NCBI GenBank assembly: GCA_032622095.1
Contig: CP136066.1
Coordinates: forward strand, 170,696,664 to 170,760,663
From: Siphonodentalium dalli
Lineage: Eukaryota; Mollusca; Scaphopoda; Gadilida; Siphonodentaliidae
DNA: 64,000 nucleotides
Reading direction: 5' to 3'
Positions 12,920 to 38,764 of this stretch are shown here, piece by piece (within the stretch, counting starts at the first letter, position 1; each line of letters begins with the position of its first letter). Position numbers and translations under genes: made by a program. The notes below the pieces were generated by a model. The model was not told the DNA's origin. It worked only from the letters and a program-made list of their open reading frames with translations, and did not search any database.

Positions 12920-13270
12920 TTAACCTTTTACCCAACAAACCGGCCAAAAACGCCCAAATAAAGCTTCAACAGCCTAAATATCTTCGGTCTGTCTCAATAA
13001 CACCATACAAATATGGATATCATTGGAACCGGTTCATTGACCACATTGTGATGGTTACAGTTATGCCCTGTGCCAATGCATTCTCTTATATATGCGAGTC
13101 GACCATAGGTCGCCTCGCATATATAAGAGAATGCATTGGCCTAAAAAAAAATTTTTTTTAATATGTGTTAAGCCAATGCATTCTATTATATATGCGAGGC
13201 GACCTATGTTCGACTCGCATATATAAGAGAATGCATTGGCACAGGGCCGTTCTGTTGGGTAAAGGGTTAA
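12920..13270. mobile_element. piggyBac-like MITE with two 69-bp palindromes
   Basis: TTAA (12920-12923) is followed by a CCTTTTACCCAACA terminus. The other end is TGTTGGGTAAAGGG followed by TTAA (13267-13270). TTAA target duplication and CCCTTT-type ends are characteristic of piggyBac-like elements. Two palindromes lie at 13072-13140 and 13172-13240. Each has 27-bp arms (GCCAATGCATTCTCTTATAT onward), an inner CGACC-ATA-GGTCG dyad and a single asymmetric mismatch that shows orientation. The second palindrome is the reverse complement of the first. A 150-bp non-palindromic left arm holds AAATAAAGC and GGAACCGGTTCATTGACC segments shared with the other copies. No transposase is present. Confidence 0.88.
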
Positions 13271-13771
13271 TAAGCACAGCGGTTAACACGTCTGAGTAGC
13301 GTATGCTGCGTTGTTCTCTCGTGTGATGCGATGCTCAATTTCACTCACATTGCCTCGTGAAAGTAATACAACGCATAACTTTCAGAAGGAAACACATATC
13401 AATGGTTAACCCATTCTATGCTAAACGGGTTCTCTCAGGATATACCAGCATTACCAGCAGACGACAAATGATAATACAAGTGCAGAGGAATACATATTCA
13501 TTTGCATGTGGGAAATGTTTAGATAATACATGTAAGTTCAACAAACGGTCGTTTATTGAACTTATTATCTGAACATTTCCTAAGGGAACTCTTCGTATTT
13601 AGTATAGAAAGGGTTAAATATTGTCTATTTATTTTATGTCCATCAACACTCTATATCAAAATATATATCGCCTGCCATTTCATAGAAACCCGAACGTGTT
13701 ATTATATACAACGCTCTTTGTTTCTATATTTTCTTTAATTCCTTTGTTTCCTGAGAAGTTATAACTATATA
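13271..13771. other. No gene recognised
   Basis: This is short intronic DNA between two palindrome-bearing elements. It contains one copy of the scattered motif AACGCTCTTT near 13710 (complement AAAGAGCGTT). No coding signature is visible. Confidence 0.4.
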
Positions 13772-14222
13772 TGTGACCCGCTATATCAAATCCAGTCGTA
13801 AGACGGGATTTTTTTTAGCCTGTGCCAATGCATTCTCTTATATATGCGAGTCGACCATAGGTCGCCTCGCATATATACGAGAATGCATTGGCCTAACAAT
13901 TTTTAATAACTTTTTCTTCTATTCTTTAACAATTTTATAATTTCACCCATACAAAGCCCCAGACAAACATGAGCAGACGACACTCTTCGATATGCTTTTA
14001 TATATGTGTGGGGCTCCCTGCAGAGTAATGGTTTTTATTTTATTTTATGTCCTAAAAATTGTAAGAAACATTTATTTAAAAAAAATGATAAAAACTTGTT
14101 AGGCCAATACATTCTCTTATATATGCGAGGCGACCTATGGTCGACTCGCATATATAAGAGAATGCATTGGCACAGGGTGAAAAAATCCCGACTTACGACT
14201 GGATTTGATATGGCGGGTCACA
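13772..14222. mobile_element. TA-target MITE with two 69-bp palindromes (third TIR type)
   Basis: The terminal repeat TGTGACCCGC, continuing ATATCAAATCCAGTCGTAAG, is matched by its complement ending GCGGGTCACA. The left flank is TA and the right flank is TT, probably a decayed TA duplication; the sister copy at 25405 has TA on both sides. Inside are the same palindromes found in the piggyBac-like elements, at 13824-13892 and 14103-14171, inverted to each other and bordered by CCTGTG and CACAGG. Apart from the palindromes the sequence is unrelated to the TTAA elements. Confidence 0.85.
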
Positions 14223-14236
14223 TTTACAGACAATAT

Positions 14237-16306
14237 CGGCCGAATTCTGGTCCTGGTCTAGACCAGGGTTTCATGTAAACTATAGTCTAGACCAGGTCGA
14301 AACCACAATGATCGCCATGTGTTACCCAGCTTCGAGGCGAGTAAGCTGGGATTATTGGTCAGCACTGGTCCGTATTCTCGTCTTTTTGAAACTCAGGTTT
14401 ACGTAAACCATGGTTTGCCTTCTTATTGTCATTCAATCCTTTGTCGATCAGTTCATAATTCGAACCATGTGGTAACGTACAAGTTCTGGTAACAGAAACA
14501 TATGTATTTTTTGGAAGCATTTATATTTATGTTAACCAAATAGGAATTTTGTTTTATTGATATGCTGTGTTGAAGAAAGATTATAATTATATATGAACTG
14601 GACAAAATGTAATATAATCGATAATTATGTTTGTTATAGGTAATAGTCTACAACTGAGACCTAGTACCCCCCTGGTCTGAGATTTTTGTATAAACCGAGA
14701 CTTGAACCTGAGACGAGAATACCTTTTTCTGTTTTCGCAGTAACGATACAGATTGGTAATTTGATTGTAATCATGCGTGCGTTTATCTGGCTTTACAGTG
14801 GAGTTTTATTTATAACATCCTTGTCGTGTTTGAAAGCATATTACCGTTCTAAAGATGGATTAAGTAAGATTTTCGTGCTATTATTTCTAATATGTTATCG
14901 ATGGGTTTGGTTGACACGGATAAATAGGGAATGATAGTAGTTTTGCAATCGGAACGTAATCCGCATTGGATGCGGGTGTCTTTCGTTCCGTGTTTCTGAA
15001 ATTAATTGAGGTCGGAGCTAGTTTTGATAGTACTAATTCATCATTTTAGAATAAATTATTGCTGGACTGGATATACAATATAACAGCAAAAACTCTCAAA
15101 ATTATATTAAGACAGAACGAAAAATTGTGGTTCAATATAAGGAAATGTCCAATTAAATTGAATTAAATTAAATTAAATGCATGGGACCCCTGCTCTTGAT
15201 TAATGATTTATTTGGTCCAGTTTCTTAAGCCTTGACATTTCAAATTGGTTTATTTGTCATAATTTATCTTTAAACGTGGATTTGGAAAAAAAATACATGG
15301 CAATGGAAATATCTGCTATCGGGAGTGGGATACAACGCACCCATCTCGATTTTTTTCCCGATACACCCACCCCCACCCCCGTTGTGACATTGTTACATTT
15401 TCTGGAAAATTATTTTCAATAACTTCAATCACGGCGATAGTTATTTAGAAACTTTCTAAATTTTCAACTTATTGCAAATTCCCAAGTCCGCGAAATTACA
15501 TTGCACATGTCACCCCCTCACCCCAATGAATTGTTGAAAATTTTCAACAAGTACCTCACTATTTCCAGTTGTTGGAAATTCCCACCTGATATCCCCTATA
15601 AAAATGGTTCGAAATGTTTTAAAGGGATGAATGTAATTTATGTGTCATATTTTGACGCAAAGTTGAACAATATATAGTTGGTTCTTGATCTGAACAAACA
15701 CTATTTTACGCTATACATTGATTGTAAAGGGCGCCGGTGGTCCCGTCGGTAGAATGCTCGGGGCATTATGTCCGCCATTTGCCATCTAGCGCTGACGAAG
15801 CTGGTTCGAATGCCGACAAGCACGGATTCGCGATCCACTCTAAGTGAGGATAATCTTATTCGTGTATCTGGGCAAGTTTGTCGGTCCCTTTCCGGTGTCG
15901 GTATTTCTACACACAGCGGAGTGTTTCTCGGTGAATTTAGTCTCTGCATAGACTTTCCTCCACCCGTAAAACTGACAACGTCGTGACATCAGCATAGGGG
16001 GGGGGGATGAGAAATCCGCACTAACCCTGCCCCATGATCCCTGTCGAACGGCGACAGCATACAGATACCGCTATACAACACGGATATAAGCCGCTTTCAC
16101 GTGCATGCTCAGGTTTGGAGACACCAACACACCAATCTCGATGCAGCGCTCAGCACGCTTTTGTCCATAGATTGTCATTGATTGTCGTTGATTGTACAAC
16201 AATGCGCCGATCCCAGCTTGAGACCAGGTGGTTTCGCGAGACCAAGTCCTGACATGGAACACCGTGATTATTAGGGTGGTCTAGACCTGAGACCAGAATT
16301 CAGCCG
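14237..16306. mobile_element. ~2.1-kb element with diverged inverted ends, carrying a SINE
   Basis: The left end CGGCCGAATTCTGGTC is the complement, with one change, of the right end GACCAGAATTCAGCCG. TAT lies immediately outside both ends, which could be a 3-bp target duplication. Near each end are palindromic GGTCTAGACC motifs. The interior has no recognisable transposase. It contains a tRNA-like SINE at 15728-15990, a CCACCC-rich patch near 15365 and several GTTGGAAATT-type motifs. It is probably an old non-autonomous DNA transposon, and its family is not recognised. Confidence 0.6.
15728..15990 (+). mobile_element. tRNA-derived SINE-like sequence
   Basis: A head of about 90 bp has an RNA polymerase III A-box-like stretch (GGTGGTCCCGTCGGTAGAAT, near 15737) and a good B box (GGTTCGAATGC, from 15803) at tRNA-like spacing. 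It is followed by a non-tRNA body containing CCACCCGTAAAACTGACAAC and ending before a G run at about 15999. The head cannot be drawn as a clean cloverleaf, so a functional tRNA gene is unlikely. Short open frames across it are incidental. Confidence 0.6.
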
Positions 16307-16676
16307 TATGGGTGTGAATACTCATAGATCATTATTCCTTTCATATTCGGTTATCTGTACCTGAACTATTTGTTTCCACGAAGATTTGGAAGGGAATAAT
16401 CCAGATATTTCAAATATATAAGCATGCTATAGAAGAGATAATTTCGGTAAGATGTGATAAATGTCTGGCAGGTATGAGTGTGACTCTCGACGGCCAAGAC
16501 TGGGATCATATACTTTATAAAGGAATACGAGTTTTGCAGATTTATCTGCTGTCAATACCAGACACCCCATCGAAGATCCAAACGACACTAGCAACAAAAC
16601 CAATGGACATGAGGTATCAATGTTCGGGTAACTCTATGTAAACACGACCCTAACTCTATCAAAAATTCCACTTTTC
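16307..16676. other. No gene recognised
   Basis: This is intronic AT-rich DNA between two mobile elements. No repeat or exon is recognised. Confidence 0.4.
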
Positions 16677-17053
16677 TTAACCCTTTACCCAACAAACCCG
16701 CCAAAATTTTTAAACGGCCAAATAAAGCTGCAACAGCCTAAATTATCTTGGGTCTGTCTCAATAAAACCATATAAATATGGATATCATTGGAACCGGTTC
16801 ATTGACCACATTGTGATGGTTACAGTTATGCCCTGTGCCAATGCATTCTCTTATATATGCGAGTCGACCATATGTCGCCTCGCATATATATGAGAATGCA
16901 TTTTACCATTTTTTCTTACATTCTTTAACAATTTTATAATTTTTAATGTGTTAAGCCAATGCATTCTCTTATATATGCGAGGCGACCTATGGTCGACTCG
17001 CATATATAAGAGAATGCATTGACACAGGGCCGTTCTGTTTGGTAAAGGGTTAA
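16677..17053. mobile_element. piggyBac-like MITE with two palindromes
   Basis: TTAA (16677-16680) followed by CCCTTTACCCAACA, and GGTAAAGGG followed by TTAA (17050-17053), mark the ends. Palindromes lie at 16837-16901 (right arm slightly degraded, ATATATGAG instead of ATATAAGAG and the last four bases lost) and 16955-17023. The left arm matches the copies at 12920 and 21644. No coding capacity is seen. Confidence 0.87.
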
Positions 17054-17068
17054 AGGCACGGGCGGCGT

Positions 17069-18477
17069 TCGTTGCAGAAATATTCATATTTGTTCAAATC
17101 GCCATAAACAGAAGGAATATCAAAATATATATAGTTTTGTTCATATGCCAAACATAATCAGCGCGTAAATAGTATATTGTCGCCAAGACGAACGGTGGTA
17201 TACGTAAACAAGAGCCTGCTCGTATTACAAAAGTTTTTGCTTCTGTTTACATAACACAGCGTAATTATATTGGTTATTCACACATAAATGATATAAACGC
17301 CCTATATTATTTCCATATCAGGTAAACAGTAACGAATAACGCTCTTTATGTTTACCATATCCGGATCTAAACAGAAGCCAGGTTCTGTAACGTTTTTTGC
17401 TGTTGTTTACATAACAAAGGAAATACATTTGACAATAATATACTGTTTATGCCATATTTCTGATTAGTATAAGAACAAAATATGTCTATATTTTACTAGT
17501 ATTTCTGTTTATGGCGGTTTTTGACGGAGGTGAATATGTTAACAGCATGACCACCGCCAACGCCGTCAGTATCTTTAATGGTGTGGATAATTTGATTTGC
17601 CATGTACGGTTACATTTCTCAAACCGTATTTTGTTTCGTTATTACTAAAATAACAGTTTTCGTAGAATTGTAATCGAATCTCCAATCTGACTGTATACAG
17701 AAAGCAGATGCGTATCATTTGCGATAAATATTCCATGGTAATATGGCATACGGGGAAGAATATTACCACCTGTCGTTGTCCTCAGGTGAACAGAGACAAT
17801 CTGGAGGTTAAATGATCGAATCTGGCGCAGAATTGAATATTGGTAAGGAGTGTGTTAATAACGTGTCAATTTGTTCCTGTCATACATCTTTTATTGAGTT
17901 TGTCGTGCAAACCTTTTATCGAAACTCAATCAGATGCGTTTTGAGCATTGAGCAAGTGTAACAGTGATTGAAATATAATATGGTGCATGTAATATACTAA
18001 CAATCCTGGTTAATATAACACAACAATGGACCCGCCCAATCTACCCGTTTGAAAGTCGTTCTATAAAGCTACCCACTGTCCGTGTAAACATATTTTTTAT
18101 TTCCAAACCCAAAACAAATAACATAGTATACAGATGACACGTATATGCATAGAATAGTCAATGTATGGAAACGAGGATCAGGCAACAAGCCTTTTTAAAG
18201 TTTTCTCAACTATTGCAGAATGTAAAAGTTTAACTTCAAATTGCGCGCGTAAAACACGTCACTTCGGCCTCGCTTTCTCGTCTGATTTTGTTTGTTTTTC
18301 TTGGCATTGTGTTGTCGACAGTTACGCTGACAATTCTATATAACTGATTCTTTGGTTTATTCTAATAATTTGATAAATTCTTTTCGGAGAACATCAAGCC
18401 TAGATTTAATTTTATTTATAAGAAATCAACTTTTTATAATTTATATTCACCATGTTGTGTCTTTTTGGATTGGAAAT
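17069..18477. other. No gene recognised; begins with a dispersed ~90-bp repeat
   Basis: 17069-17156 repeats 7039-7130 in the same orientation. From about 17200 to 17460, phrases such as GTTTACATAAC recur and AACGCTCTTTATG occurs near 17338, as near 50918. These suggest an older composite repeat. The rest shows no exon or RNA gene. Confidence 0.45.
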
Positions 18478-18682
18478 AGCGCGCTTAATATACCACTTCT
18501 TTTGACTGGTACTCTGACAAATTGTAAATTGAAAATATATACTCAATGAGGATATGTACTGTGGAAAGATTTTGGTGTATCTTTTAGTCTCCGCATTCGA
18601 TCACTTTGAATCCTCATTGAGTATGTTCTAATTTACAATTTGTTAGAGTACCTGTCAAAAGAAGTGGTATATAAAGCGCGCC
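18478..18682. mobile_element. Foldback element with ~72-bp arms
   Basis: The left arm (about 18478-18550, starting GCGCGCTTAATATACCACTT) is the complement of the right arm (about 18611-18682, ending AAGTGGTATATAAAGCGCGC). The arms enclose a ~60-bp loop. A third partial copy of the end (GCGCGCCTCAATATACCACT) lies at about 19077-19115. Between them (18940-19080) short units built from GCGC and AATATCGCAATA repeat several times. This is a non-coding foldback transposon or a hairpin derived from one. Confidence 0.72.
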
Positions 18683-20290
18683 ATTTTCGCGTCCAATATC
18701 GCAATAATATTTCAAGTGGAAACGCTTATAAGCGCGCCGCTTGCGTTATTATTGCAATAGTATGCGCTGGATATCGCAATGTATTAAAGCAAATTATTGC
18801 TTCTTCTATATTGTTTATTGTATAAATAAATAGAGACAATGTTTTAGAATTTTATATAATTATAGTTGTATATGCTATATGTACAGTATATGTACAATAT
18901 ATACACAGTATTTATTTAATATAAATATAACACTATCGGGTCTGTATGAAATTTTGCGCGCTTAATATCGCAATATTTTGCGCTCAATATCGCAATAATA
19001 AGCGCGACAGATTTTTGGTATTGCACTATATAATCGCGGCTTTTTCGAAATTAAGCGCGCTCAATATCGCAATAAAGGCGCGCCTCAATATACCACTTCT
19101 TCTGGTACTGTACATTTGTAAATATTTTCATTGTAGAGTTTTATTCATATTGTATCATACCTGCATGCTTGTATGACGGATTATATGAATTGGTGTGTTG
19201 TATAGATATATATATGTGGGCATATTTTAATTACTATTCTTTATTATCACTCCGGTTCGAGCTCGGGACAATATTTAGCAGGGGTAAAAAAAAACACGCG
19301 AATAAATTACTATCGCGGTCTTGAACATGTTTGTGAACAGATACGATTAGCATTTAGAACTGTATCTTCCACCATAAATGAAGTGTTTGTTTACAATTGC
19401 CTCATAATCGGCAGCTTTGTCAACGTTTAAAGACGACATCAGCCCTTTAAAACACTTCTCCAAATATGTCCGTTATTTCGTCAAAGACACCTTTTCAAAT
19501 ATCTCCGTTATTTCGTTTATAAAAATAATTTCATATTTCTATATTTCGTTCTATATTTCGCCCTATTTCGCTGTATTTTCCTATTTCGATTTTCTATGTA
19601 CTTTCCTATTTCGCTTTTTCGTTTTATTTCATGTTTCGATAATTCGCTATATTTGACATATTATGGGATATGGTATTATATGATACCCTACATTTTGATA
19701 TTCAACTGAACATCACGTGCCTCCCGTGGTCGCGATTGTATGCCAATAGCCATCATATCGTGAACCCCGATATGTTATCTTTTGGTAGTCAAGCGTGGGC
19801 GTATTGGCTGGGTTAATCGGTTCCGATCGCGGCGTTTTGCATTGAAATAACTTGAAGAAAGTTCCGTGATGAATTGCTGCATGGATTCAACTCAGATAAG
19901 AATAAGATATTTTACGATATTTGCGTCTGAAACAGCGACGTAGCTAGCGGGTCTCTGTTGGGAAGGGGGTGTCCACCTTGGAAATTCAACTGCACCGCAC
20001 GCCTTAAATCAGACCAAACACAATTTTTTTCGGAATTCCATTTGCACCCCATTGCACTTCTAATGCATGCTCCCTCACAGGCCTGGATAAACGGCTCTTG
20101 TTGTACAAAATACCCGGTGTCAGAACATTTATAGATCTGAATCTGAAAATTGCATAAATCCTAACATTTAGTGGTCTAATTGCAGACAAATTGAAATGAC
20201 CAGGGACGAGAGCCCAGGACATACCGTGCTATAGTGTGAGGAAAATTTGAAATCTGAAAAAGAAAATCGCAAAATCATATTATCTCGATG
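18683..20290. other. No gene; contains short-phrase repeats
   Basis: 18940-19085 holds repeated AATATCGCAATA phrases with GCGCGC ends. 19450-19650 holds about ten copies of (C/T)TATTTCG-like octamers at irregular spacing. No exon or RNA gene is recognised. Confidence 0.5.
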
Positions 20291-20339
20291 TGAGAACATT
20301 TTGAAATCTCAACAAAAACATCTGGGCTGGCCTCAGGAT

Positions 20340-21643: not shown

Positions 21644-22107
21644 TTAACCCTTTACCCAACAAAACGGCAAAAAACGCCCAAATAAAGCTTCAACAGCATA
21701 AAATATCTTCGGTCTGTCCCAATAACACCATACAAATATGGATATCATTGGAACCGGTTCATTGACCACATTGTGATGGTTACAGTTATGCTCTGTGCCA
21801 ATGCATTCTCTTATATATGCGAGTCGACCATAGGTCGCCTCGCATATATAAGAGAATGCATTGGCCTAAAAAAATTCTTTTTTAACACTTTTTACCATTT
21901 TTTCTTACATTCTTTAACAATTTTATAATTTTTTCTTACATTTTTTAACAATTGTTATAATATTTTTCTACATTCTTTGACAATTTTATCATTTTTAATA
22001 TGTGTTAAGCCAATGCATTCTCTTATATATGCGAGGCGATCTATGGTCGACTCGCATATATAAGAGAATGCATTGGCACAGGGCCGTTCTGTTTGGTAAA
22101 GGGTTAA
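21644..22107. mobile_element. piggyBac-like MITE with two 69-bp palindromes and a T-rich spacer
   Basis: TTAA (21644-21647) then CCCTTTACCCAACA, and TGTTTGGTAAAGGG then TTAA (22104-22107), mark the ends. Palindromes lie at 21797-21865 and 22009-22077 in opposite orientation. The spacer is a tandem array of ~30-bp units, TTTTTCTTACATTCTTTAAC followed by AATTTTATAA. This is one of the most intact copies and serves well as a family reference. Confidence 0.9.
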
Positions 22108-22243
22108 AGAGAAACACATCTGATGGCTTTATACGAACATATACCTCTTCAAAACTATCCAATCGGAATCATCCTACCAGGAACGGTTTCGAAAATACGA
22201 CATTCGACATTTTAGATTTTGAGATAAGTATCGACGGGAAACC

Positions 22244-22640
22244 TTAACCCTTTGAGTGCCAGGTCCGATTTTTGTATCAACCCATATACCCTGTGCCAAT
22301 GTATTCTCTTATATATGCGAGTCGACCATAGGTCGCCTCGCATATATTAGAGAATGCATTGGCCAAAAAAAAAATCATTATTTGTTATTATTTTTTACAA
22401 TTATTTACAATTTTAATATTTTTTTCTTATATTCTTTAACAGACTTGTTTTGTAGGTTTAGTGCCAGGGAATCTTACGTTTTTCATGGGCATCAAAATTA
22501 TTACTATGAATACTTGGTGATAGTTTTGAGTTATAACATGCCCCTAAGATTTTATCCAGTTTGTTTTTAAATTCGCTATAGCATGCTTAGACATACCAAA
22601 AAATATTCAACCCTAAAAAAAAAATTCTAAAAAAAATGGT
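22244..22640 (+). mobile_element. Truncated piggyBac-like element of the CCCTTTGAGTGCCA type
   Basis: TTAA (22244-22247) followed by CCCTTTGAGTGCCAGGTC matches the left end of the element at 37489. One palindrome (22295-22363) follows. Then comes a body shared with that element: TTTAGTGCCAGGGAATCTTA, TATGAATACTTGGTGATAG and TTCGCTATAGCATGCTTA. The similarity fades around 22600-22640 and no right-hand inverted repeat is found, so this copy has lost its right end. Short open frames inside are not recognised as protein. Confidence 0.75.
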
Positions 22641-22862: not shown

Positions 22863-23332
22863 TTAACCCTTTACCCAACAGAAGGGCCCTGTGCCAATGC
22901 ATTCTCTTATATATGCGAGTCGACCATAGGTCGCCTCGCATATATAAGAGAATGCATTGGCTTAACACATATTAAAAATGATAAAATTGTCAAAGAATGT
23001 AGAAAAATATTATAAAACTTATAAAATATTATAAAAATTGTTAAAGAATGTAAGAAAAAATTATAAAATTGTTAAAGAATGTAAGAAAAAATGGTAAAGT
23101 GTTAAAAAAGAATTTGTTTAGGCCAATGCATTCTCTTATATATGCGAGGCGACCTATGGTCGACTCGCATATATAAGAGAATGCATTGGCACAGGGCATA
23201 ACTGTAACCATCACAATGTGGTCATTGAACCGGTTCCAATAATATCCATATTTGTATGGTGTTATTGAGACAGACCGAAGAATTTTAGGCTGTTGCAGCT
23301 TTATTTGGGCGTTTTGTTGGGTAAAGGGTTAA
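22863..23332. mobile_element. piggyBac-like MITE, reverse orientation, two palindromes
   Basis: TTAA (22863-22866), CCCTTTACCCAACA and the complementary end ending in TTAA (23329-23332) define it. Palindromes lie at 22893-22961 and 23122-23190. The long non-palindromic arm is on the right here (GGTCAATGAACC-type text reversed), so the copy is inverted relative to 21644-22107. Just outside the right end the sequence matches 31953 onward, where no such element is inserted. Confidence 0.9.
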
Positions 23333-25404: not shown

Positions 25405-25852
25405 TGTGACCCGCCATATCAAATCCAGTCGTAAGTCGGGATTTTTTTTACCCTGTGCCAATGCATTCTCTTATATATGCGAGTCGACCATAGGTCGCCT
25501 CGTATATATAAGAGAATGCATTGGCCTAACAATTTTTTATCATTTTTTTTAAATAAATGTTTCTTACAATTTTAGGACATAAAATAAAAAACATCCATTA
25601 TCCTGCAGGGAGCACCACACATATATAGAAGAGTTTCGTCTGCTCATGTTTGTCTGGGGCTCTGTATGGGTGAAATTATAACATTGTTAAAGAATACAAG
25701 AACAAATTATTAAAATTGTAAAAAATTGTTAGGCCAATGCATTCTTTTATATATGCGAGGCGACCTATGGTCGACTCGCATATATAAGAGAATGCATTGG
25801 CACAGGGTAAAAAAATCCCGACTTACGACTGGATTTGATATGGCGAGTCACA
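25405..25852. mobile_element. TA-target MITE with two 69-bp palindromes
   Basis: The TGTGACCCGCC terminus is flanked by TA on the left (25403-25404), and the complementary GAGTCACA end by TA on the right (25853-25854). Palindromes lie at 25457-25525 and 25733-25801. Between them is a T/A-rich spacer and a ~90-bp segment (TCTGCTCATGTTTGTCTGGG) shared, inverted, with the sister copy near 13950-14035. This is the best-preserved copy of the third terminal-repeat type. Confidence 0.88.
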
Positions 25853-25854
25853 TA

Positions 25855-26570
25855 TTTATTGTACATCATTGTTATGGCATTACGTTTGCGACATCCAACC
25901 ACATTTGGACTCGTGTAAGCAAAAGCGCTCGTGTTTAAGAACATTTAAAACAAACGTGTATACTTGGACAATTTCATATTTTGTGATAAAAATACGACGA
26001 GAAAGACGAGTAGGTAATGAGAACTATTTTGTAAATAGTGTACATATGTTCGTAAACTCTTATCTCATGTTAATTCATGATTGAGTAGTATTCCGGACAT
26101 GCGTCAAACTCTAATCCAGAATAATGTCATATCGAGATAACTCGTTATAGTATACCCAAATATAGCATACATTTCAATTTTACAAAATGAGTTATCGGGG
26201 ACAACATAGCCAAGAGGGCTGTCTAGCTGTCGTTATTTAGACCAAAAAATCGAATATTTCCAACTGTTGGTTAATTTATTACTGACATATCCATCAGTTA
26301 GAAATTATTGAACCATAGGGGGTGTTAGTTTGGAATTCTCCGACCGTTTGAAAGTCTGGATATCAGTTTGAAAATTAAAATTCAAGGGTGCAATTGATTT
26401 ATCATAGATTTGGGAAATTTGGTCTTGAAGTGTGTATTTGAAAACATTAAGCAGCTCAAACAAAGACCCGCGCCCCTGATTTGCCATTTGCTATATCTTA
26501 CCAACCTGCAACAAAATAACAGTGTAGCGTGTAGACATATCGCACCTTAGTGTTACATGTAAAGGCTAAC
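25855..26570. other. No gene recognised; start of intron 1
   Basis: It contains a small cluster of the GTTGGAAAT-type motif (about 26255-26350). No exon is seen between this stretch and the donor of exon 1. Confidence 0.4.
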
Positions 26571-26877
26571 CTTTCTCGAACACAGCGGCAGCAGTGTCCC
26601 GTGTGTACAGCTCACATTCGATCACGTAACAACTTGGTGCGTTGAATAAGAACCTCCGACATCCGGGTATGCTGAGGCAGAACGCAGCACAGTCCTCTTT
26701 TGATGATGCTGTAATTGACGCATAGTTCGTCGGCGGGCACTGGGTGGGCGAATCACCGCGCGGGTTGGTCAGCTCTTTCATTCTAAACAACTCCGCGTTC
26801 GCTCGAAATGTGAATATGATCATCACGCAAAGAGATTGAATGGTGATTGTAGGCGTGTGCGTCATCATAACATGCAT
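26571..26877 (-). CDS. PAN-WSC secreted protein, exon 1: signal peptide and PAN/Apple-like domain
   Basis: The ATG at 26875-26877 (or the tandem ATGs nine bases further in) opens a frame with a hydrophobic stretch (residues 16-24) and a RANA-type cleavage site near residue 28. This is a good signal peptide. A PAN/Apple-like module follows with six cysteines at 47, 63, 67, 73, 83 and 88. Its key run is DCAAFCLSIPGCRRFLFN followed by a CYVIECELY strand. PAN modules bind proteins or carbohydrates outside the cell. The exon ends at a GTTAGC donor (26565-26570) in phase 1, which joins the glycine codon to exon 2. Phase-1 borders are usual for shuffled extracellular modules. The open frame continues upstream of the ATG to 27126 but looks non-coding. 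With exons 2 and 3 the product is about 204 residues; I see no membrane anchor. Confidence 0.85.
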
Positions 26878-27872
26878 TGGTACCGTGCAACGCTTAGCAA
26901 AATATGTGATACGTCTGCAGTACAATGTTTTACTCAAGAAATAATAGCTGGTCGGTATAACGTAGTTGTCAATAAAAACACACGAGACCGCTTCTTGACA
27001 ATAACACGAAGTCACATTCAGAGAAGACACAACGATGTAACTGCGAACTGCTGATATGCGCGCTATCTCATATACGAATCGAATGTGAGCCTGTGCGCGC
27101 AATTCTAAGGCATAAACTTGACGCATGTGCAGAAATCCGTCCCATATTGGCCCGGAATGCAGTTGATGGCTTAAGAAACAGCGGGCTGTTTTCAGCTGGC
27201 TCTGTTCTCTTACAGAACAACGGGGCTTTGTTAGCTTAATAATGTTGCCATTATATGTTATAGTATGTGTGCTTCGAAGATGCAGCTGCCTCTCTAGTAT
27301 TGAGCGATCTGCTGATCAAACATGTGAATCTTACGTGAATAACAATACAGATAGTAAGCAATTATCTGTGATCTGTTTGTCGTGATATGGCATACCGGCT
27401 GAAACGACGGTAAAACCCCAATATACAAATCTTTCGTTTCGCGTTTGACTGAGTGCAGGTATACTAAAATAGCATAGACATATACATTTGCTGTGACCAA
27501 TAGAAAATTATATTGACTTTGCGGTTTAAGTGTATACCAGCCGTTTATTGAAATGTTCCTCATTCTATATTAAGCGCGGGTTTTCCCTATAATAATGAGG
27601 CGGAGACCACAAGTTCACAACTCATAAACGAAACTTTTGAATGTGGAATGTTTGGTAACATTTTTCACAACATCTACTCTTTAGTATTGCAAATCAGAAG
27701 GCTCCGTTTTTAACATCGCATGCTGATATAAAAGGACACATCCTAACAAATTGAACAGTTTCGCGCACGAAATAAAAAGCTTCGCATTGGTTTGTGTTTA
27801 CAAATTAACCGGGAATCCGAATCACACAATTGTGCGCAATAGTGCTTGGATTATATCAATATTTTTCACATA
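26878..27872. other. Upstream region of the PAN-WSC gene; no other gene seen
   Basis: This would hold the promoter and 5' UTR of the minus-strand gene. No clear TATA box or initiator could be fixed. Short open frames on both strands show no known domain. Confidence 0.4.
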
Positions 27873-28017: not shown

Positions 28018-28039
28018 TATAAGGTATGCAATGATACAC

Positions 28040-28460: not shown

Positions 28461-28688
28461 TGAAGCCCAACTCATTGCCAAAACACTAAAAAAACAAGCA
28501 GGAAATGTTTTTTTCAGTTGCGGAAAAAATTGCTTGTTGGTGGTTTTGACCATCCACCCACCCCGGCAGAAATTTTTTCACCCCCCCCCTGCTGGCAAGG
28601 GAAATTTGTAGCGCTGGTCGATCGGTGTAAATACGACAATAGCGGAGGTCCAAATAATATATTGGCCTAACAATCTTGACCTTGTAAT

Positions 28689-28770
28689 CCAGTGCATTCT
28701 CTTATATATACGAGGCCTCCCATGTGAGACTGGCGTACATGTGTATACAAGAGAATGCATTGAAACAGGA
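28689..28770. repeat. Degenerate solitary palindrome of the 69-bp family
   Basis: AGTGCATTCTCTTATATATA followed by CGAGG, and the right arm AAGAGAATGCATTGAAACAGG, match the family. The central dyad is replaced by an unrelated stretch containing CATGTGAGACTGG. It is a decayed copy without recognisable terminal repeats. Confidence 0.7.
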
Positions 28771-30367
28771 TACTTAATGCTGCACAAGCGCGGCTCCCAT
28801 CATGAAAGTGTTAAACTGCCTCCTCTGGGCTCATAGGTTATTTTCTGGTATAGAAGACATACTGCTAACGAAATAGTAGAATATTGGAACGTTATGGTAT
28901 CAAATATGATGGGGCATATTTAAGCCGGTTCATTTAATATGTATTGGGCCAGATGCAAGGCCCCACTTAGCACCCTGTGTCAAATCGACAGCAGGTTCTC
29001 TGGTTCTCTCGGTTCGAATGTCCCATTTATCCCAATCAGTGATACATTGTTGCGATGTTTACACAGGGTGATGACGAAAAGGGAATAATTCTCCACGATA
29101 TTTATCACAACACACACATTGCCTTACATTACAGCGAACATGCACAATACGTGGGAAATGTCATATGTTTCGCACGAAATAATTGTTATGTGTGTGTTTA
29201 TATCGTCGAACTATTAATTATACATTGTAATTTCCTATTTCTCTTATAGTATTGAGTTTCTTGTCTTGGGAGAATAATTCGTATAAGATGAGACCCGTAA
29301 CAGTCCTCATTGAGTGCACTGAAGCGTTAGATAAGTGTTGTTACTGTCTTGCCGTCTTTTATTTGAAAAGTGCAAATGAAAAAATATAGTGGTCGATACA
29401 CTAATTATTCAAAATACCAATCAAACAGCAATTAGTAACATCAGTGTCTTGTTATTAATATAGTCCATATGAAGAACGTTCTTCTGCTCTAATTGATGCT
29501 GACGCTTCCCTAAATAATAGCTGAGAGGAGGATGATAACTTGTTCAAATTATCGACACGTGGCCCACTCATCGATATTCGCACCATTCTTCTTTTTTTCT
29601 CTTTTGTTTCCTTCTTGTTCACATTACAGCTCGCTGTCATTTACTGACAATTATGAGCCGGTCCAGGTGCTACCACGGCCGAGTAACTTTATAACCCTGT
29701 GGTGACTCCAGTAGTGTTCTTTAGCGTGCAAACACCGAGGCGTGTACACGGGTCAGCCATTAATGTCCGCACCCGATCGGACAGCGTGCTGCACACATGA
29801 CAACATAGCTGGACAAGTGTTGTAATGGGGGAAGTGGGCATTTTTGCATTCGGATCTTTATACAGTGATCTCGAATGAGATTTTCAACCTTACAAACTTG
29901 ATATCTGACCGAGTTCTGATTTTTGTCGGAATACCCTGACCAGGTTGCGATAACCGGTCCGCTAGCACGAGAGACCAGCACGCTACCTCTCGGTTACCGA
30001 CTTCCCAGTCAAAAGATAACATCGAACCACAACAAAACCGGAAATTAAGCACATACTTTTATGGGACCAATGTGCCCAGCGGTAGTGTTGCTAATTAACC
30101 GACATACGCTGATGCAATGTCACTGGAAATAAAAGACAACAATCCTAACGAAAATATATCAATATGGGAAAAGCACGAAGCTCATATGTCAGACGATGTG
30201 ATAAGCTCACACGCGTGTGAATGAATTACGCTCCCGATGGAGACAATTTTTTGGGTTTTCAATATTCTGGCCGTGGTTGGTTTGAATGAAAAGTTTGGTG
30301 AAATTATGGAACTGCGAAACATAGTTTGTGATGACTATGTGGGTTGTGACTACGCCGAGTAAAAATC
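28771..30367. other. No gene called; one weak tRNA-like patch
   Basis: At 29935-30005, minus strand, the text GGTAACCGAGAGGTAGCGTG followed 25-30 bp later by GGACCGGTTATCGCAACC loosely resembles A and B boxes of a tRNA-derived SINE head, but the B box is poor. A short minus-strand frame at about 29760-29820 ends in a cysteine-rich run (VMCAARCPIGCGH) that could be a decayed PAN fragment. Neither is strong enough to annotate separately. Confidence 0.35.
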
Positions 30368-30505: not shown

Positions 30506-30644
30506 TACAAGGACAAGACTGCCGCAGGCACTTTTGAAGCTTTGTGGCGGTTTCGAGCTAGCTGGAAGTGTGCTCGCCTTTATTGCACCCGCAGTCCGCT
30601 TCAGGTAATATGAATGTGTATAGAAATACGTTAAAGGGACATTC

Positions 30645-31445
30645 TGTCTACGTACTTTGGAAGAAGGTATAAGAAAAGTTGACAAATACACGAAATATTG
30701 ATATACCGGCTTCAGATGCTCTGAAAAACACTTAACATCCATGTTTCAGCTGTTTTCAATTTTTCGCACATAAGTGTCAAAATGCTCTCTATTTCTACAA
30801 TATCAACTAACACGGACCGCTCTTTTCTGTCCCATGACTGTTTTTGTTTGGTATCCACACATCGTGTTCAATGTTGCATTTTTTTTATTTCAATGCGTCT
30901 GTCATGGACATATAATGGTCGTAGAAAGGTACACGTAGTTCCAGTATTTATCGACCTATTTCGATACCGATAATAATTCAAAAGCGCATATTATTATGTG
31001 AATAATGGACCACAAATCACCAAGTGCGCGGCTTTAAACAGAAAAAAATGGCTTTCCAAAATGGTATTGTCTACGTAATTGAGAAGGAGGTATAATTTAG
31101 GTTGACAAATACATGAAATATTGATATACCGGCTTCATATGCTCTGAAAAATACTTTCCATGGTCACAGCCATTTCCATCTGTTTATAATTGTTCGCACA
31201 GAAGTGAAATAATCGGTCTTTATTTCTGCCATATCAGGAATAGACTAACATGAAACGCTCTGTTCTGTTCCATGTAGTGCGCATGGGTGTTGTTTGTTTG
31301 TCTGGGACCCAAACACCCTGTTCAACGTTGTGCTTTTATTACTTCAATGCGTCTTTCTGTGACAAATAATGCCCGTAGAAAGTTAGTTCATGTATTTATC
31401 GACCTATTTCGATACCGGGAAAAATTCGAAGGCGACTATTGTTAA
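30645..31445 (+). repeat. Tandem direct duplication, two ~425-bp units
   Basis: The first unit (about 30645-30985) and second (about 31065-31440) share, in order, GTTGACAAATACA, GAAATATTGATATACCGGCT, ATGCTCTGAAAAA, a CGCTCT-T-CTGT phrase, CATGGACATATAATG or its variant, TATTTATCGACCTATTTCGA and TACCG. The copies have diverged by substitutions and indels. No coding is recognised. Confidence 0.78.
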
Positions 31446-32849: not shown

Positions 32850-33690
32850 GATACCTGGAAAAATCATGATGGGAGCTATTGCATTTGAACGATTTTCGAT
32901 GAAAACATGCCCGTCAGCAGTCATCTTGGATTTTACTCTAAGCATGACTAAATCGTTTGGCGCATCATGCAGGCCACATCGTCACCAAAATTCATATGGA
33001 TCATCCGGGTGACCGACCTCTTGATGGGAGCTGACAATTTTCCCGAATTATGCTTAAAACATGACTGCCAATAGATGTTATTCTTTGTATGACTAAATCC
33101 TTTAGCACACCATACAGGTCACATCTCGCGTCCGATCGTCATCAGACGTCATATTGATATTCGGGTTGACCTCTAGATGGGACATTACCATTAAAAAAAA
33201 TTTATTCTGTTAAAAATCATGGCCGTCCGTGGCCATATTGGATTTCACATTTGAATCCATCGGCACACCATGCATCCCACAATTATTGGCGAAATGTTTT
33301 GAAAGTTTACAGGCATGTTTGGGGTCTCCTCTTGATTGGAGCTATTTAATTTGAACGATTTTCGATGTAAAACATGGCCGCAAGCAGCCAACTTTTATTT
33401 TACTCTTTGCATTACTAAATCCTTTGGCACAGCCTACAGGCCACATCCCTCATCAGATCGTCACCAAACTCAGGGTGACTTCCTGATTTGAGCTTACCAT
33501 TTGTTGTTTTCGAATTTTGTTGAAAACATGGATGCTATCAGCCATTTTGAATATTACACTTTGTATGACTAAATCCTTTAGCACACCCTTCAGGTTACAG
33601 GTCAGATCTCTCATCCGATCGTCACCAAACGTCATATGGATCTTCGGGGTGATCGCTAGATGGGAGCTTACCATTTTAGCTCAAATTGAC
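32850..33690 (+). repeat. Degenerate tandem array of ~160-bp units
   Basis: About five or six units each carry a GGGAGCT start, a TTTTCGATGAAAACATG-type stretch, GCAGCCATCTTGGATT, GACTAAATCCTTTGGCAC, CAGGCCACAT and GATCGTCACCAAA. Starts fall near 32872, 33026, 33178, 33340, 33493 and 33663. It belongs to the AAGATGGC family also seen at 5865-6420. Chance open frames lie within it. Confidence 0.75.
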
Positions 33691-33964
33691 AAGTTAAGTT
33701 TGAGCTATTGTCTGTGTACGTCCGCGTCTATGTGTGTGCGTGGGTGGGTCAATATTTTTAATTAGCACGGGCTACAGGTCGTACCGTTGGTCTGATCATA
33801 ATAAATTTGGCATAGCTGTTGGCATTGACATGTAGATGGAAATGAGTTATTTTGAGGTAATTCGGAAGAAAAAAACATGGCTATCAGCGACCATCTTGGA
33901 CTTCACAATTTAATCACCTGCTATTGATTTCAGCGGGGGTGGTCTAGATACTGTACAAACTATA
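33691..33964 (+). repeat. Dispersed repeat fragment with TGAGTTATTTTGAGG segment
   Basis: The stretch GACATGTAGATGGAAATGAG, TTATTTTGAGG and an ATGGCTATCAGCGACCATCT segment matches 28295-28380 and, inverted, about 35170-35260. It directly abuts the left end of the next element. Confidence 0.6.
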
Positions 33965-34693
33965 GGGGTGGTATTCACCGGCTGGGTTTATTATATAGTC
34001 CAGGTAGTTTTACGAGGCGACGCTCAATGCGAAGCTATCGGTGGACATCAATGGGAAGACATCGCCGCGCGGTATAGGATTATCCAATCAAGGTGATTGG
34101 CGGCAATCATAGATTGACCACCGGTCACATAAACATGCTGCGCGTAACAGTACACGTTTGGTTCATTTCAACAATGAGCAACCGATGAAAAGTACGTGGG
34201 GCAAAATATACCACCGACGAGCGTTTTTGGTCATTGTGGAGAGAAGAATCAAAATATTAGAGAACAAAGAAACCGACATAATTCACCAGCGCCGGAAAAA
34301 TGATGCCTGGAATTATATTTCTTTGGAAATGGCAGGGAAATTTCCAAACAGAACCAAAAGACAAACAAAATTATTCTGAGACGTTATCTTCTTGGCTCTT
34401 CATTTTCACGCTGTGCTAATTAAAACACCTCAATAATATCATTGAAACTCATTCTGCAGATGTATACGCCAGCATGAGTCTCCACACAATTATACCAAAA
34501 ATTATACCGCTATACATGCCGATTGTGGCCGGTGAGTGTTCACGAATTAGTCGTGAGACGGTGTCAATTGACAAGTGACAAAATCTGATAGATTGGATCA
34601 ATCACATCATCGAGAGCGTGTGTCCTTGGCGTTCAGCCACTACCAAATAAACTACCTGGCTTATAAATTAGTCTCGCTTGGTGAATACCGCCC
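33965..34693. mobile_element. DNA transposon relic with ~48-bp inverted repeats and a Myb/SANT-like fragment
   Basis: The left end GGGGTGGTATTCACC, continuing GGCTGGG and TATAGTCCAGGTAGTTTTA, is matched by the right end TAAACTACCTGG ... GGTGAATACCGCCC with a few differences. TA lies outside both ends (33963-33964 and 34694-34695). Inside is a short open frame resembling a Myb/SANT-like DNA-binding domain, a type that accompanies transposases in PIF/Harbinger-type elements. PIF/Harbinger usually makes 3-bp targets (TWA), so the superfamily is not settled. No transposase remains in the 729 bp. Confidence 0.72.
34185..34379 (+). pseudogene. Myb/SANT-like DNA-binding domain fragment
   Basis: From the ATG at 34185 to the TGA at 34377-34379 the frame encodes about 64 residues. 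The run VERRIKILENKETDI, then a basic KNDAW motif, then RTKRQTK corresponds to the Myb/SANT-like domain pattern, in which an E-N-K-x-T-D turn precedes a K-x-x-A-W helix and a basic third helix. The frame stops where the third helix should continue, so it is a truncated domain. The open frame extends upstream of the ATG by at least nine codons. It lies within the inverted-repeat element and was probably the accessory DNA-binding protein of its parent transposon. Assignment is from memory of the motif. Confidence 0.55.
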
Positions 34694-34695
34694 TA

Positions 34696-35089
34696 GAAGT
34701 CATGGCGGGTTTAGACTTTAATAAACAATTATCACTAGAAGAATTACCAAGACAGTATGAACTACGACACGAACTGAAATAATACAAGAAATGGTAACGC
34801 CATCAAGATCATATTTTTAGCCATATATGCAATATAACAACTTTAATGTGGTGACCGTGAAAAAATATGTATATAGGTAACGCCTATGTGGCTGATTATA
34901 TGTGATATGTTTTTTTCTAATTTCATTTGAAACAGTGGTCTGAGTAGCGCATGAAATAGCATGCAGAATAATATTCGGGCAAAAATTGGCCACGTATGCC
35001 GGGGTGGGTGGGTGTTCGATTTCGCAACTCAACATTTTTTTTATTATGCAAGTCTTTTTGACTGTTTTTGCAATGAGTTTGGCTTAAAC
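34696..35089. other. No gene recognised
   Basis: It holds a short copy of the GAAATGGTAACGCC repeat near 34790. No exon or RNA gene is visible. Confidence 0.4.
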
Positions 35090-35480
35090 ACATTAGGGTA
35101 AGAGTAATAATGTAATTATAACTGCTAAACTGACTGCAGACAGTTATCGTATTGTATTTTGTTGCAAATTATTTTGAAATCCAAGATGGCCACTGGCAGC
35201 CATTTTTTTTTGGCCGAATTACCTCAAAATGACTCGTTCCTATTTACATGTCAATGTTTACATCCATGACAAATAGTATGCATAGAAATTCATATACAGG
35301 TGTTTACAGTGAATTGCCCCCCCGCAAATCTCTGTTTTAGTGTTAAATGGGGGGTTGGGTGTCCAAAAATTGGCGGAAAAAACTGCCGAAAACGGAAAAA
35401 AATTGGGACGCGGGGCCCGGGGGTGGGTGGGTCACAACAATGGTCGAAAGTAAAAAATCAGCATACGCGCCTGAATTTTT
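35090..35480 (-). repeat. Inverted copy of the 28.0-28.5 kb repeat
   Basis: Read on the minus strand this repeats 28040-28460: the C and G runs, the CAGAGATTTG and CACTAAAACAG stretches, ATGTAAATAGGAACGAGTCA and the GCCATCTTGGATTTC segment follow in the same order. The two copies are 7 kb apart and could pair. Confidence 0.72.
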
Positions 35481-35489
35481 TTTCCGGGT

Positions 35490-36235
35490 AAATTAATATA
35501 TCGTCCAATGAGGGTTAATTAAAATATCGTCCCATAAGAGTTAATTAAAACTTGGACCCATGGGGGGGGGGGGGGGGTAATTGAAATATGATCCCATTAA
35601 GGTCAATTAAATAGAGACTAATTAATTGGTTCCGCGAATTATGTTAAATAATTCACGAGAGGCGAGAGATGTCGGTAAGAAACGAGTGCGCGTTAGCACA
35701 AGAGTTTCTTATACAAACGTCTCTCGCCTCGAGTTAATTGTTTAACGTAATTCTCGGAACAAATTGATTCCTCTATTTATTTCACTTCTGCATCAATTTG
35801 GTTCGCCAAATATGATTAAACACCCCGAACTAATGCATGAAAGTCCCGATGTGAAGAAAGATCAACCATCGAAAATTCAGTCTAGATCAGTAAGCCACAT
35901 AACGTCAATGACGTCACAAGAAATGACATACTTCACTAGTGACATTACCATTTTTGATTAACGGCGTTTTAAATGTAAATCGCGCATATAAGTGTAATAA
36001 AATATGGTAACGTTACTTAATTAAAGAATAATTATATGGTCCCATTATGAGGGTTAATTAAAATTAAAATATGGTGTCATAAGTGTTGATTAAACTACGG
36101 TCCCACTGGGTGAAATACAATATAGTCCCATGAAGGTCAATTAAAATATGGTCCAATGAGGACTAATTATAATATGCCCCCTCCCCCATGATGATCAATT
36201 AAAACATGGTCATAAGAAGGGGGGGGGGGTAATAT
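35490..36235. repeat. Array of ~27-35-bp units (GGTTAATTAAAATATGGTCC type), split by a foldback
   Basis: Units containing (G)GTTAATTAAAATATGGTCCCAT recur at 35495-35620 and 36030-36230, about five on each side. Gaps carry long G runs at 35561-35577 and 36219-36228. The array is interrupted at about 35620-36030 by a foldback and other sequence, so the foldback inserted into a pre-existing array or both duplicated together. Confidence 0.72.
35631..35762. mobile_element. Foldback element with ~45-bp arms
   Basis: The left arm (TTCCGCGAATTATGTTAAAT to GAGGCGAGAGATG) pairs with the right arm (ACGTCTCTCGCCTCGAG to GTTTAACGTAATTCTCGGAA). The loop of about 40 nt contains AGAAACGAGTGCGCG. Mismatches are spread along the stem, so it is not recent. 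No coding is present. Confidence 0.7.
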
Positions 36236-37488
36236 CTGAACATTCTTCAATTCATATATAATTCTGAGATATCCTCGGTACACATAAATAAAAATGATGT
36301 TTAGAATTTGGCAACATTGTATGTTAAACAACCAATGTGAAGGGTTGGTGTTGGAACTTTTCTTAATAACATCTCTATCATAGCTCCGATATATTCCGCA
36401 TACAAAGAAATGAAAAATCAATATTTACAAACAGCACGAATGAGTAACGTGGGAATTGGTTAATAATTACCATCCAGTTCATTTAGAATATAACATGCCG
36501 ATATTTGTCGCGTATAACTAAATGAAAAGTTCACTAAACGATATTAAATAACATTATTGGACGGTGAGGTGGAGACTTCCTTCGTGACATCCTTTGGAAA
36601 GGAATATAAAACTGTAATAAAATTGAACAAGGAGTTCAATCCAAAAACAATTAAAAAAAAAAAACAATAATGTTTTTTTTTTAATTTAAAAATAATGTTT
36701 AAATGATCAAAATGTGCGTAAAGGGGCCGCCGCTGAATACAGACTCTGTCTAAGATCAAAATGTGCGCGAAGTCGCACAAATGGGCCACAGGTCGCTGAA
36801 TACAGACAAAAAGGAGCCTGTTTCGGCTATTTTAGTAATAGAAGTTACTCCAGTAGACTAACACAAGCGGTATGGAATAAATTAGACAGACTAAGCAGGA
36901 ACCAGTTATAAATTATGGAATTGTGTGTATCCTGCAGCATGCCCTAGGTTTGCAGATATCATCAATTTATAAAATATTTTTTCCAATTGCAACCGGGTAA
37001 ACATCCTCTATGTATTTATTTTCAAATATGGCAAATATGGCACATCAGTTGAATTGGAACTTAGCAACTGATATGTCATGGATATGTCTACAAAATGTCA
37101 ACAGTGAGTCGAAAGTTAAGATTAAGTTAATCTCACTGTCCTGAGATCAGCTTAAAATGTATTACAGCCAAATAACCAAAACACGTGGTCGGTGTAATAG
37201 CTTGCAGCGGAAAATGGTATACCACTGGATATGCACGGGATATTTAAAATTAGTCTTTGTAAAATTGAATGCATATACCTTATATTATTATTGTATGTGC
37301 ACATGGGTTACTGTATTTGTCCACGGCATCGATGCATTAGAATTTCCATTTAGCAGTATGGAAATTTGACCACCCAGTTAGACCCAGTATACTCGCATTG
37401 CACACTGACCTGGAAACTCCAATCATTGTATGTGGTAACCAAATGCCTATCAGCCAGTATTTGTAAAGAATCTTCACATTTGCGTGTA
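36236..37488. other. No gene; one short direct duplication
   Basis: GATCAAAATGTGCG followed by GCTGAATACAGACT occurs at about 36707-36748 and again at about 36755-36808. The remainder is AT-rich with poly-A and poly-T runs near 36650-36690. No exon is recognised. Confidence 0.4.
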
Positions 37489-38764
37489 TTAACCCTTTGA
37501 GTGCCAGGTCGATTTTTGTATCAACCCATATACCCTGTGCCAATGCATTCTCTTATATATGCGAGTCGACCATAGGTCGCCTCGCATATATAAGAGAATG
37601 CATTGGCCTAACAATTTTTCATCTTTTGTTATTATTTTTTACAATTTTTTATAATTTTAATATTTTTTTCTTATATTCTTTAACAGGTATATTTAGTAGG
37701 TTTAGTGCCAGGGAATCTTATGTTTTTTATGGGCATCAATATTATTACTATGAATACTTGGTGATAGTTTTGAGTTATAACATGCCCCTAAGGTGTTATC
37801 CAGTTTGTTTTTAAATTCGCTATAGCATGCTTAAGGGTGGATACACACATGCATGTAATCTCTGTATGTAAAATACATGTATTTTACATGGCCACGCCAA
37901 TAATTGACAACATTAATCACCTACGCGCGAGCGGTTCGTTGTTAACAGTCCAGACAAGTGAGTAATTATAAGCGAAGTCAAACTGTCTGCTGTCATGACA
38001 TTTAAGGCCAGTCCAAAACATGTCTTCTCTGCGGAAATTGGTCAAGTCTGGGTGATATCTGGCATTTTATTAATACACGAACACGAGATGCGACACGTCT
38101 GGCATATAGAACATGTTCGACCATGATGCTTGTTTGGCGTGGGGTCTCGAAAGCTTCAAATCGGTAAGGGACTTAGTTGAATACATGTATATCGGTCGGA
38201 ATAATCTGGGCAAGAAGGTACAATATAATATGTTTTACTTAAGTAGCTCAGAGTTAGCCACCCCGCCTGGTAGCTTTCGGGATCATAATATAGCCGCAAG
38301 TCGGGGATCACATATAGCCACAAGTCGGAGAAATCCTGATCCACCACTGCTATAAATATCAAAAGAGGACTCGTAATTATTTACATATAGAACGCCCACC
38401 ATATGGGTTATCCCACGAACAATTATTTTAAGTGTTCTGGCGACTCGGTTCAAGATAACGGCTTTTCTACATTCCCACTTAATTGGAACTAGAAATGAGA
38501 GCGGTCAACACGTCGACAATGATTGGGTTGTCAGTGGACACATATTACATTGTCTGTATGATCCATGTAAAACGCCAAATACACGATAATTACAGAGATT
38601 ACATGCATGTGTGTATCCACCCTAAGCATACCCGAACAAAATTCAACCCAAAAAAAAATTGAATCTAAAATTAAAAACCATTTTTTTTTTTTTTTTTTTA
38701 GGGTCGATTTTACACACCGTAAATTAGGGCCGATGAGATCGGCCCGTGGCACTCAAAGGGTCAA
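37489..38764. mobile_element. piggyBac-like element (CCCTTTGAGTGCCA type), split by a nested insertion
   Basis: TTAA (37489-37492) with CCCTTTGAGTGCCA on the left, and TGGCACTCAAAGGG with TCAA (38761-38764, one change from TTAA) on the right, define it. A single 69-bp palindrome lies at 37539-37607. The body matches the truncated copy at 22244-22640. A separate element (37835-38622) sits inside, after GCATGCTTA. A run of about 19 T occurs at 38680-38699. No transposase is recognised, so it is non-autonomous. Confidence 0.84.
37835..38622. mobile_element. Nested element with GGGTGGATACACAC ends and TAA target duplication
   Basis: The left end GGGTGGATACACACATGCAT, continuing GTAATCTCTGTA, is the near-exact complement of the right end TACAGAGATTACATGCATG ... 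GTATCCACCC. TAA lies directly outside both ends (37832-37834 and 38623-38625). Comparison with the sister copy at 22585, which reads GCATGCTTAGACATACC without the insert, shows the empty site. A 3-bp TAA target and GG-starting ends are typical of PIF/Harbinger elements. A frame at 38113-38355 has no recognised domain. The superfamily assignment is an inference from ends and target only. Confidence 0.82.

Follow-up and report, generated by a model that had tools for sequence, protein, structure and literature searches.

In a 64,000-bp stretch of the genome of the scaphopod mollusc Siphonodentalium dalli (contig CP136066.1, positions 170,696,664 to 170,760,663; hereafter the window), we found a 69-bp near-perfect palindrome in 14 good copies and one decayed copy, carried by short transposon-like elements whose outer ends are of at least three kinds. 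What the elements have in common, when their sequences are compared, is more than the palindrome alone: a core in which palindromes adjoin an AT-rich spacer. The explanation we favor, at roughly even confidence, is that these are composite non-autonomous DNA transposons (miniature inverted-repeat transposable elements, MITEs), in which a foldback core, probably once mobile at TA sites, lies inside at least three families and is now carried as a passenger.

An oriented palindrome with a single ancestor

A scan for palindromes with 20-base arms, at most two mismatches and loops of up to 20 bases returned the same 14 copies, the only other matches being four clusters of ATTTGCGCTTAAGCGCAAAT-like repeats between 9.5 and 11.2 kb. 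The decayed copy (28683–28769) has an nhmmer E-value of 4e-14. A preliminary description of this DNA had listed where the palindrome occurs, and all 14 good copies are at those places; the decayed one is present as well. The palindrome forms 32 base pairs around an ATA loop, with a single fixed mismatch. For the copy at 37539, taken as single-stranded DNA, the folding energy is -35.4 kcal/mol (z -15.6), and none of 200 shuffled sequences was as stable. The short-repeat arrays with ATTTGCGCTTAAGCGCAAAT-like palindromes occupy 9203–11205.

The asymmetric mismatch, T at position 28 and C at position 42, is present in all 14 copies with the T side outward in every one. Because one oriented mismatch is common to every copy, it marks a single ancestor of the palindromes. 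Outside the T side lies a CCCTGTG/CACAGGG border, exact in 12 copies and with one change in the other two, and the earlier statement that these borders travel with the palindrome thus holds; in all classes CCCTGTG is the outward edge of homology. We rejected frequent conversion between the arms of the palindrome, since every one of the 14 copies keeps the T/C mismatch and new mutations have no mirror counterpart. Beyond the units, CCCTGTG or CACAGGG occurs exactly at five sites, which by our own rough estimate is near the chance expectation for a 7-mer, and a CACCCTGTGTCAA...TTTACACAGGGTG pair at 28971–29070 was for that reason judged to be chance.

Helitron and Helentron 3' ends carry a hairpin on one side only, after which CTRR marks the insertion limit, and they lack inverted symmetry. 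We considered such an end since CTAA follows many of the palindromes (8 of 14, with TTAA after another 4), and rejected it because the CTAA faces the interior, occurs at each end of an inverted unit and is followed by further homologous sequence.

Elements with different outer ends

The elements fall into classes A, B and C, with a decayed fourth unit, D. Their outer arms begin TTAA/CCCTTTACCCAACA in A, TA/TGTGACCCGCC in B, TTAA/CCCTTTGAGTGCCA in C and TTAA/CACTTTCATGATGG in D. Positions in the window, with strands, are:

12920–13270 (+): A1, class A; TTAA-CCTTTTACCCAACA left arm of 146 bp, 31-bp spacer, right arm of 24 bp ending TTAA
13072–13140 (+): palindrome, left end of A1 core
13172–13240 (-): palindrome, right end of A1 core, inverted
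13772–14222 (+): B1, class B; TGTGACCCGCC arms of 45–46 bp abutting the core
13824–13892 (+): palindrome, left end of B1 core
14103–14171 (-): palindrome, right end of B1 core, inverted
16677–17053 (+): A2, class A; a deletion took some of the spacer along with the left palindrome's inner end
16837–16905 (+): palindrome, left end of A2 core, inner end damaged
16955–17023 (-): palindrome, right end of A2 core, inverted
21644–22107 (+): A3, class A; long spacer of 31-bp repeats
21797–21865 (+): palindrome, left end of A3 core
21881–21996 (unstranded): A3 spacer, a 31-bp AT-rich tandem repeat in 3.7 copies
22009–22077 (-): palindrome, right end of A3 core, inverted
22244–22582 (+): C1, class C; left end TTAA-CCCTTTGAGTGCCA, right end not identified
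22295–22363 (+): palindrome of C1, left only
22863–23332 (-): A4, class A, in reverse orientation
22893–22961 (+): palindrome, right (short-arm) end of A4 core
23122–23190 (-): palindrome, left (long-arm) end of A4 core
25405–25852 (+): B2, class B; TA outside both ends
25457–25525 (+): palindrome, left end of B2 core
25733–25801 (-): palindrome, right end of B2 core, inverted
28683–28769 (-): D, decayed palindrome unit, TA on its outer side
28771–28814 (-): D outer arm, TTAA-CACTTTCATGATGGGAG, possible fourth end type
37489–38764 (+): C2, class C, with both ends and a 790-bp nested insertion at 37834–38623
37539–37607 (+): palindrome of C2, left only

Class A elements measure 351–470 bp, with TTAA at both ends in four of four, a left arm of 136–154 bp, a right arm of 24 bp, and CCCTTTACCCAACA or a one-base variant at both termini. 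In class B (448–451 bp), inverted arms of 45–46 bp touch the core on both sides in both elements, and the target TA is found on the left of both and on the right of one (both sides in B2, the left only in B1). C2 is flanked by TTAA on the left and TCAA, one change away, on the right, and its termini form an 18-bp inverted pair, including the TTAA, that is 94% complementary. These features bear out the three kinds of ends named in the preliminary description. The decayed D palindrome lies 44 bp inside a TTAACACTTTCATGATGG end, which may be a fourth type. Flanking DNA differs among the four A, the two B and the two C copies, so the elements are separate insertions.

C2 is 1276 bp long, of which 790 bp are the nested insertion, itself an element with perfect 33-bp inverted ends (AGGGTGGATACACACATGCATGTAATCTCTGTA); C1, at about 22585, has the site without it. 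Within C2, TTTAGTGCCAGG resembles a duplicated C left end, but a match this good arises in 109 of 2000 shuffles, and we set it aside.

piggyBac-like terminal inverted repeats begin with CCC or CCT. Classes A and C have the features of piggyBac-like MITEs, namely a TTAA target duplication (in C1 seen at the left end only) and short terminal inverted repeats. A Pfam scan of six open reading frames of the window revealed no transposase, and no Rfam family reached its gathering score in 12801–39000. Exact-pattern searches returned nothing from viral_contigs (palindrome arm, B arm, A left arm, palindrome plus CCCTGTG, palindrome center) or from genome_contigs (palindrome arm); these collections are viral and prokaryotic and have little bearing on animals.

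One possibility is that the classes belong to a single transposon family, with A, B and C the products of slow divergence of its ends. Ten arm pairs, built from a single representative per arm, were aligned locally and scored against shuffled sequences. The pairs that exceeded the shuffles were the left and right arms of A, which belong to the same family, and A, C and D among themselves, where the resemblance runs from the first bases. Common descent of the ends would account for the TTAACCCTTT and the TTAA targets common to A and C, and for the scores of A-right with C (above all 300 shuffles), A-left with C (8 of 300 shuffles as good) and A-right with D (3 of 300). However, once the first ten bases were removed from A-right, C and D (five pairs, with A-left outside this test), none scored well: z was 0.18 for C–D, -1.1 for A-right–C, -1.8 for A-right–D, -1.0 for B–C and 0.33 for B–D. 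The B arm, whose target also differs, resembles no other arm in any of its four pairs (best z 0.99). Outer arms of the classes are thus without detectable homology beyond about the first ten bases. The gradual divergence that had been raised as a possibility is not seen in the arm comparisons, and the palindromes are no more different between classes than within them, which leaves little time for ends to diverge. We regard a single diverging family as very improbable.

The shared core includes the spacer

In classes A and B the palindromes form inverted pairs around AT-rich, homologous spacers. Both C elements have the left palindrome only, followed by the same kind of spacer and then by sequence of their own. 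The A spacer is built on a 31-bp repeat (Tandem Repeats Finder rows 21881–21996 and 23023–23106) and is reduced to 31 bp in A1 and 49 bp in A2; in B, a stretch of roughly 100 bp peculiar to that class has related sequence on either side.

Nine chosen spacer comparisons were made alongside the arm tests. In matching orientation, spacers of different classes aligned with z 13.7 (A3–B2r), 10.0 (A3–B1r), 11.8 (C2–B2r, 45 bp with 4 mismatches), 5.9 (C2–B1r) and 4.0 (A3–C2), and none of 300 shuffles reached any of these cross-class scores. Comparisons in the other orientation gave z 3.1 for A3–B2 (5 of 300 shuffles as good), 5.0 for C2–B2 and -0.3 for A3r–C2. Since spacers of different classes align beyond shuffles, the common module is the core as a whole. 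The earlier proposal of one module of common descent inside non-homologous ends therefore stands, except that the module is palindrome plus spacer (palindrome–spacer–palindrome in A and B), not the palindrome alone. Palindromes and spacers share common descent, and the composites were inserted whole at separate sites.

Core borders and the proposed entry of the core

Next to CCCTGTG, the adjoining dinucleotide is TA at the left of both B elements, TA in one and CA in the other at their right, and TA at the left of both C elements; at the right of D, TA adjoins TCCTGTT. In class A it is TG on the left and GG on the right in all four elements. TA thus stands at four of six border types; at the window TA frequency of 0.084, the chance of at least four of six is 7e-4 if the borders are independent, which the two B borders are not. 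This pattern points to a core that inserted at TA in B, C and D. A Tc1/mariner-type inner unit would have TA duplicated at its two borders; of the cores here, that of B2 has TA at both and that of B1 at one.

On the reading we favor, the fullest inner unit is CCCTGTG, palindrome, AT-rich spacer, inverted palindrome and CACAGGG, and it derives from one ancestor. This core was most likely once a foldback element in its own right, with TA-CCCTGTG ends and insertion at TA. It would then have been enclosed by at least three unrelated MITE families, A and C with piggyBac-like TTAA ends and B with TGTGACCCGCC ends, entering by TA insertion at least in B and C and before the recent spread of these families. 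Each family would depend for its movement on a transposase that recognizes its outer ends, and the core would be carried along. In the case of B, this implies a near-perfect palindrome as host, with TA in the middle and TTTTTTTTA and TAAAAAAA as flanks, an attractive if unproven target. We infer both the mobility and TA targeting of the core itself and the identity of the mobilizing transposases.

Several observations weigh against this reading. None of the four class A elements has TA at either core border, and simple TA insertion fails for that class. The window contains no solitary core, as all nine units, the decayed one included, are bordered on one or both sides by a transposon-like end; nor does it contain a core-less copy of the A left arm, the B arm or the C left arm, so no empty site is at hand. 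The B arms are symmetric up to the core, and nesting there calls for a host of perfect palindromic symmetry centered on TA. In class C the right half of the core is missing, whether through loss or from the outset. Gap repair explains the A borders and the half core of C better than nesting does.

An alternative is that the core was captured by repair: an excision or break inside A, B or C would have been followed by gap repair that switched template and copied the core, which was never mobile alone. Ectopic gap repair has been proposed in PMC1562414 for the interior of P-MITEs, and it would account at once for the A borders, the half core and the lack of solitary cores from the window. Yet repair capture alone does not predict that the core stops at the same CCCTGTG in every class, or that TA adjoins four of the six border types, and our arm comparisons revealed no common stretch that could have guided template switching. 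We consider capture by repair possible, though a minority prospect as the general explanation; insertion and gap-repair capture may both have happened.

Divergence of the palindrome and its surroundings

The 14 palindromes carry 15 substitutions, all of them singletons, and no difference is fixed between classes. Three of the 15 lie at the deletion junction of A2 left and were omitted from the rate tests, the clustering tests and the pairwise differences over 66 columns. The sample amounts to nine units in 64 kb, in three or four independent contexts. Mean pairwise differences of the palindromes are 3.6% (A left) and 2.9% (A right, B and C alike); those of the arms are 4.7% (A left), 5.8% (A right), 4.4% (B) and 0% over 40 sites (C left); and those of the spacers are 3.9% (A), 6.6% (B) and 9.1% (C, with the following sequence). 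Stratified by class, the Mantel-Haenszel odds ratio for palindromes was 0.54 against outer arms (p 0.14), 0.43 against spacers (p 0.022) and 0.44 against arms and spacers together (p 0.013), and no single-class comparison reached p 0.05. The A outer-arm count in this test is 17, or 16 with each shared variant counted once, and the C "spacer" takes in the sequence that follows (C1 to 22582, C2 to 37831).

Compared across their first 66 columns, the palindromes show differences of 2.42% within classes (35 pairs), 2.65% between classes (56 pairs) and 2.53% between the left and right copies of one element (6 pairs). Because palindromes and arms do not differ significantly in divergence, and palindromes differ about as much within classes as between them, the composites seem to have spread recently, as one piece. 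On this reading, the palindromes come from one recent source.

The spacers behave differently, with best local stretches that differ by 0–6.2% within classes (5 pairs) and 4.5–16.7% between them (16 pairs). These are all 21 pairs of seven of eight units, one orientation each, with the 31-bp A1 remnant left out and the worst-matching ends dropped by local alignment. Such a contrast with the palindrome, together with the absence of fixed class differences, the singleton substitutions and the lower odds of change against spacers and against all other sequence, is what one would expect if the palindrome were a selected cis signal, either a site for a transposase or host factor or an amplification hairpin. 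That role is compatible with either mode of capture. Against it, the difference from outer arms is not significant, and in class C the palindromes have two substitutions while the 40-site outer arm has none. The spacers are AT-rich repeats that slip and may have been compared out of register, which would inflate their divergence, and C1 and C2, aligned end to end over the initial 79 bases of their spacers, show 10 differences, as many as some cross-class pairs. New mutations are moreover unmirrored between the arms of a copy, so pairing has not been maintained after insertion. A selected cis signal seems to us rather doubtful.

The preliminary description held that the palindrome hardly changes as its surroundings differ. 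This is right in that no class difference is fixed and the spacers tend to differ more; within classes, the palindrome is not significantly slower than the arms, and its rate relative to them is compatible with equality, while relative to all other homologous sequence it is lower. Constancy between classes mostly reflects the lack of fixed differences among recently spread copies, and evidence for extra constraint is at most moderate. Some constraint before the spread is possible, although the contrast behind it comes from spacers rich in repeats.

Columns 54–56 of the inward arm hold five of the 12 substitutions that were kept, and the mirrored columns have none (P 0.006 for the densest window of three columns, a width chosen after seeing the data); outer and inner arms have 3 and 9 substitutions, respectively (P 0.14). 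The nine core units span 24.6 kb of the window (P 0.003 for nine random points), and the sample may therefore be local; their clustering in 12920–38764 may hint at local hopping.

Other features of the window

Mab-21 is an animal protein family, and a Mab-21-type gene lies on the minus strand at 53532–55064 (Pfam Mab-21_C, E 8e-13; Mab-21, E 6e-6); the adjoining open frame at 53067–53531 has no Pfam match. Pfam also identified a WSC-domain stretch at 7426–7827 and a weak PAN-like match, under the curated cut-off, at 26566–27315. Short tandem arrays at 51429–51749, 58370–58582, 59224–59628 and 60243–60508, in both orientations, apparently consist of one 111–122 bp repeat, judged by reading the unaligned sequence. 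A 60-bp tandem satellite of about 50 copies (92% matches) extends from 61034 to the window end at 64000.

Relation to known composite MITEs

Composite MITEs and captured domains are known. MER6 and MER6A form a composite MITE with the V domain of a short interspersed nuclear element (SINE), and are alike in that a foreign conserved module was multiplied inside a TA-flanked MITE; in PMC6887750 that module is SINE-derived and occurs in one MITE and its variant, whereas here a palindrome-bounded unit is found with at least three end types. The interior of the Anopheles gambiae P-MITEs, thought to come from ectopic gap repair, is AT-rich, and its secondary structure has been suggested to be advantageous; one of them, AgaP2-P12MITE, has ends of two subfamilies, for which the authors suggest macrotransposition (PMC1562414). 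In our case, by contrast, a single interior is common to classes with different ends and targets.

The bivalve Pearl-type MITEs CvA and DTC84 are modular and contain short tandem arrays, and in DTC84 a conserved palindrome lies close to the repeat junction; the available portion of PMC5139131, which permits comparison by description only, mentions no array enclosed by two inverted 69-bp palindromes. For the Angel MITE, intrastrand pairing and a stem-loop model of amplification have been put forward, and miDNA4, a Tc1/mariner MITE, is thought to have captured a tandem repeat; each is a single family, and the accessible parts of PMC12628747 describe no unit common to several kinds of ends. The titles and abstract openings viewed in our searches of an open-access collection revealed no palindrome-bounded core in several MITE families. 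Within the literature searched, a palindrome-bounded core that recurs under three or four kinds of ends, with two target preferences among them, is a new variation on these known elements.

The source of MITE interiors and the reason why some families explode are unsettled, and PMC1562414 describes the interior's origin as controversial. An interior common to several families separates these questions: the outer ends decide what moves an element, and the interior might decide the extent to which it multiplies. One speculative idea, which we consider unlikely, is that the core is a portable amplification module, from which enclosing MITE ends would gain copies by way of hairpins or an unwinding AT-rich array. 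If so, it would recur in unrelated families, much as conserved central domains do in SINEs. The set of classes described here forms a natural comparison, which can be counted in the complete genome of the organism.

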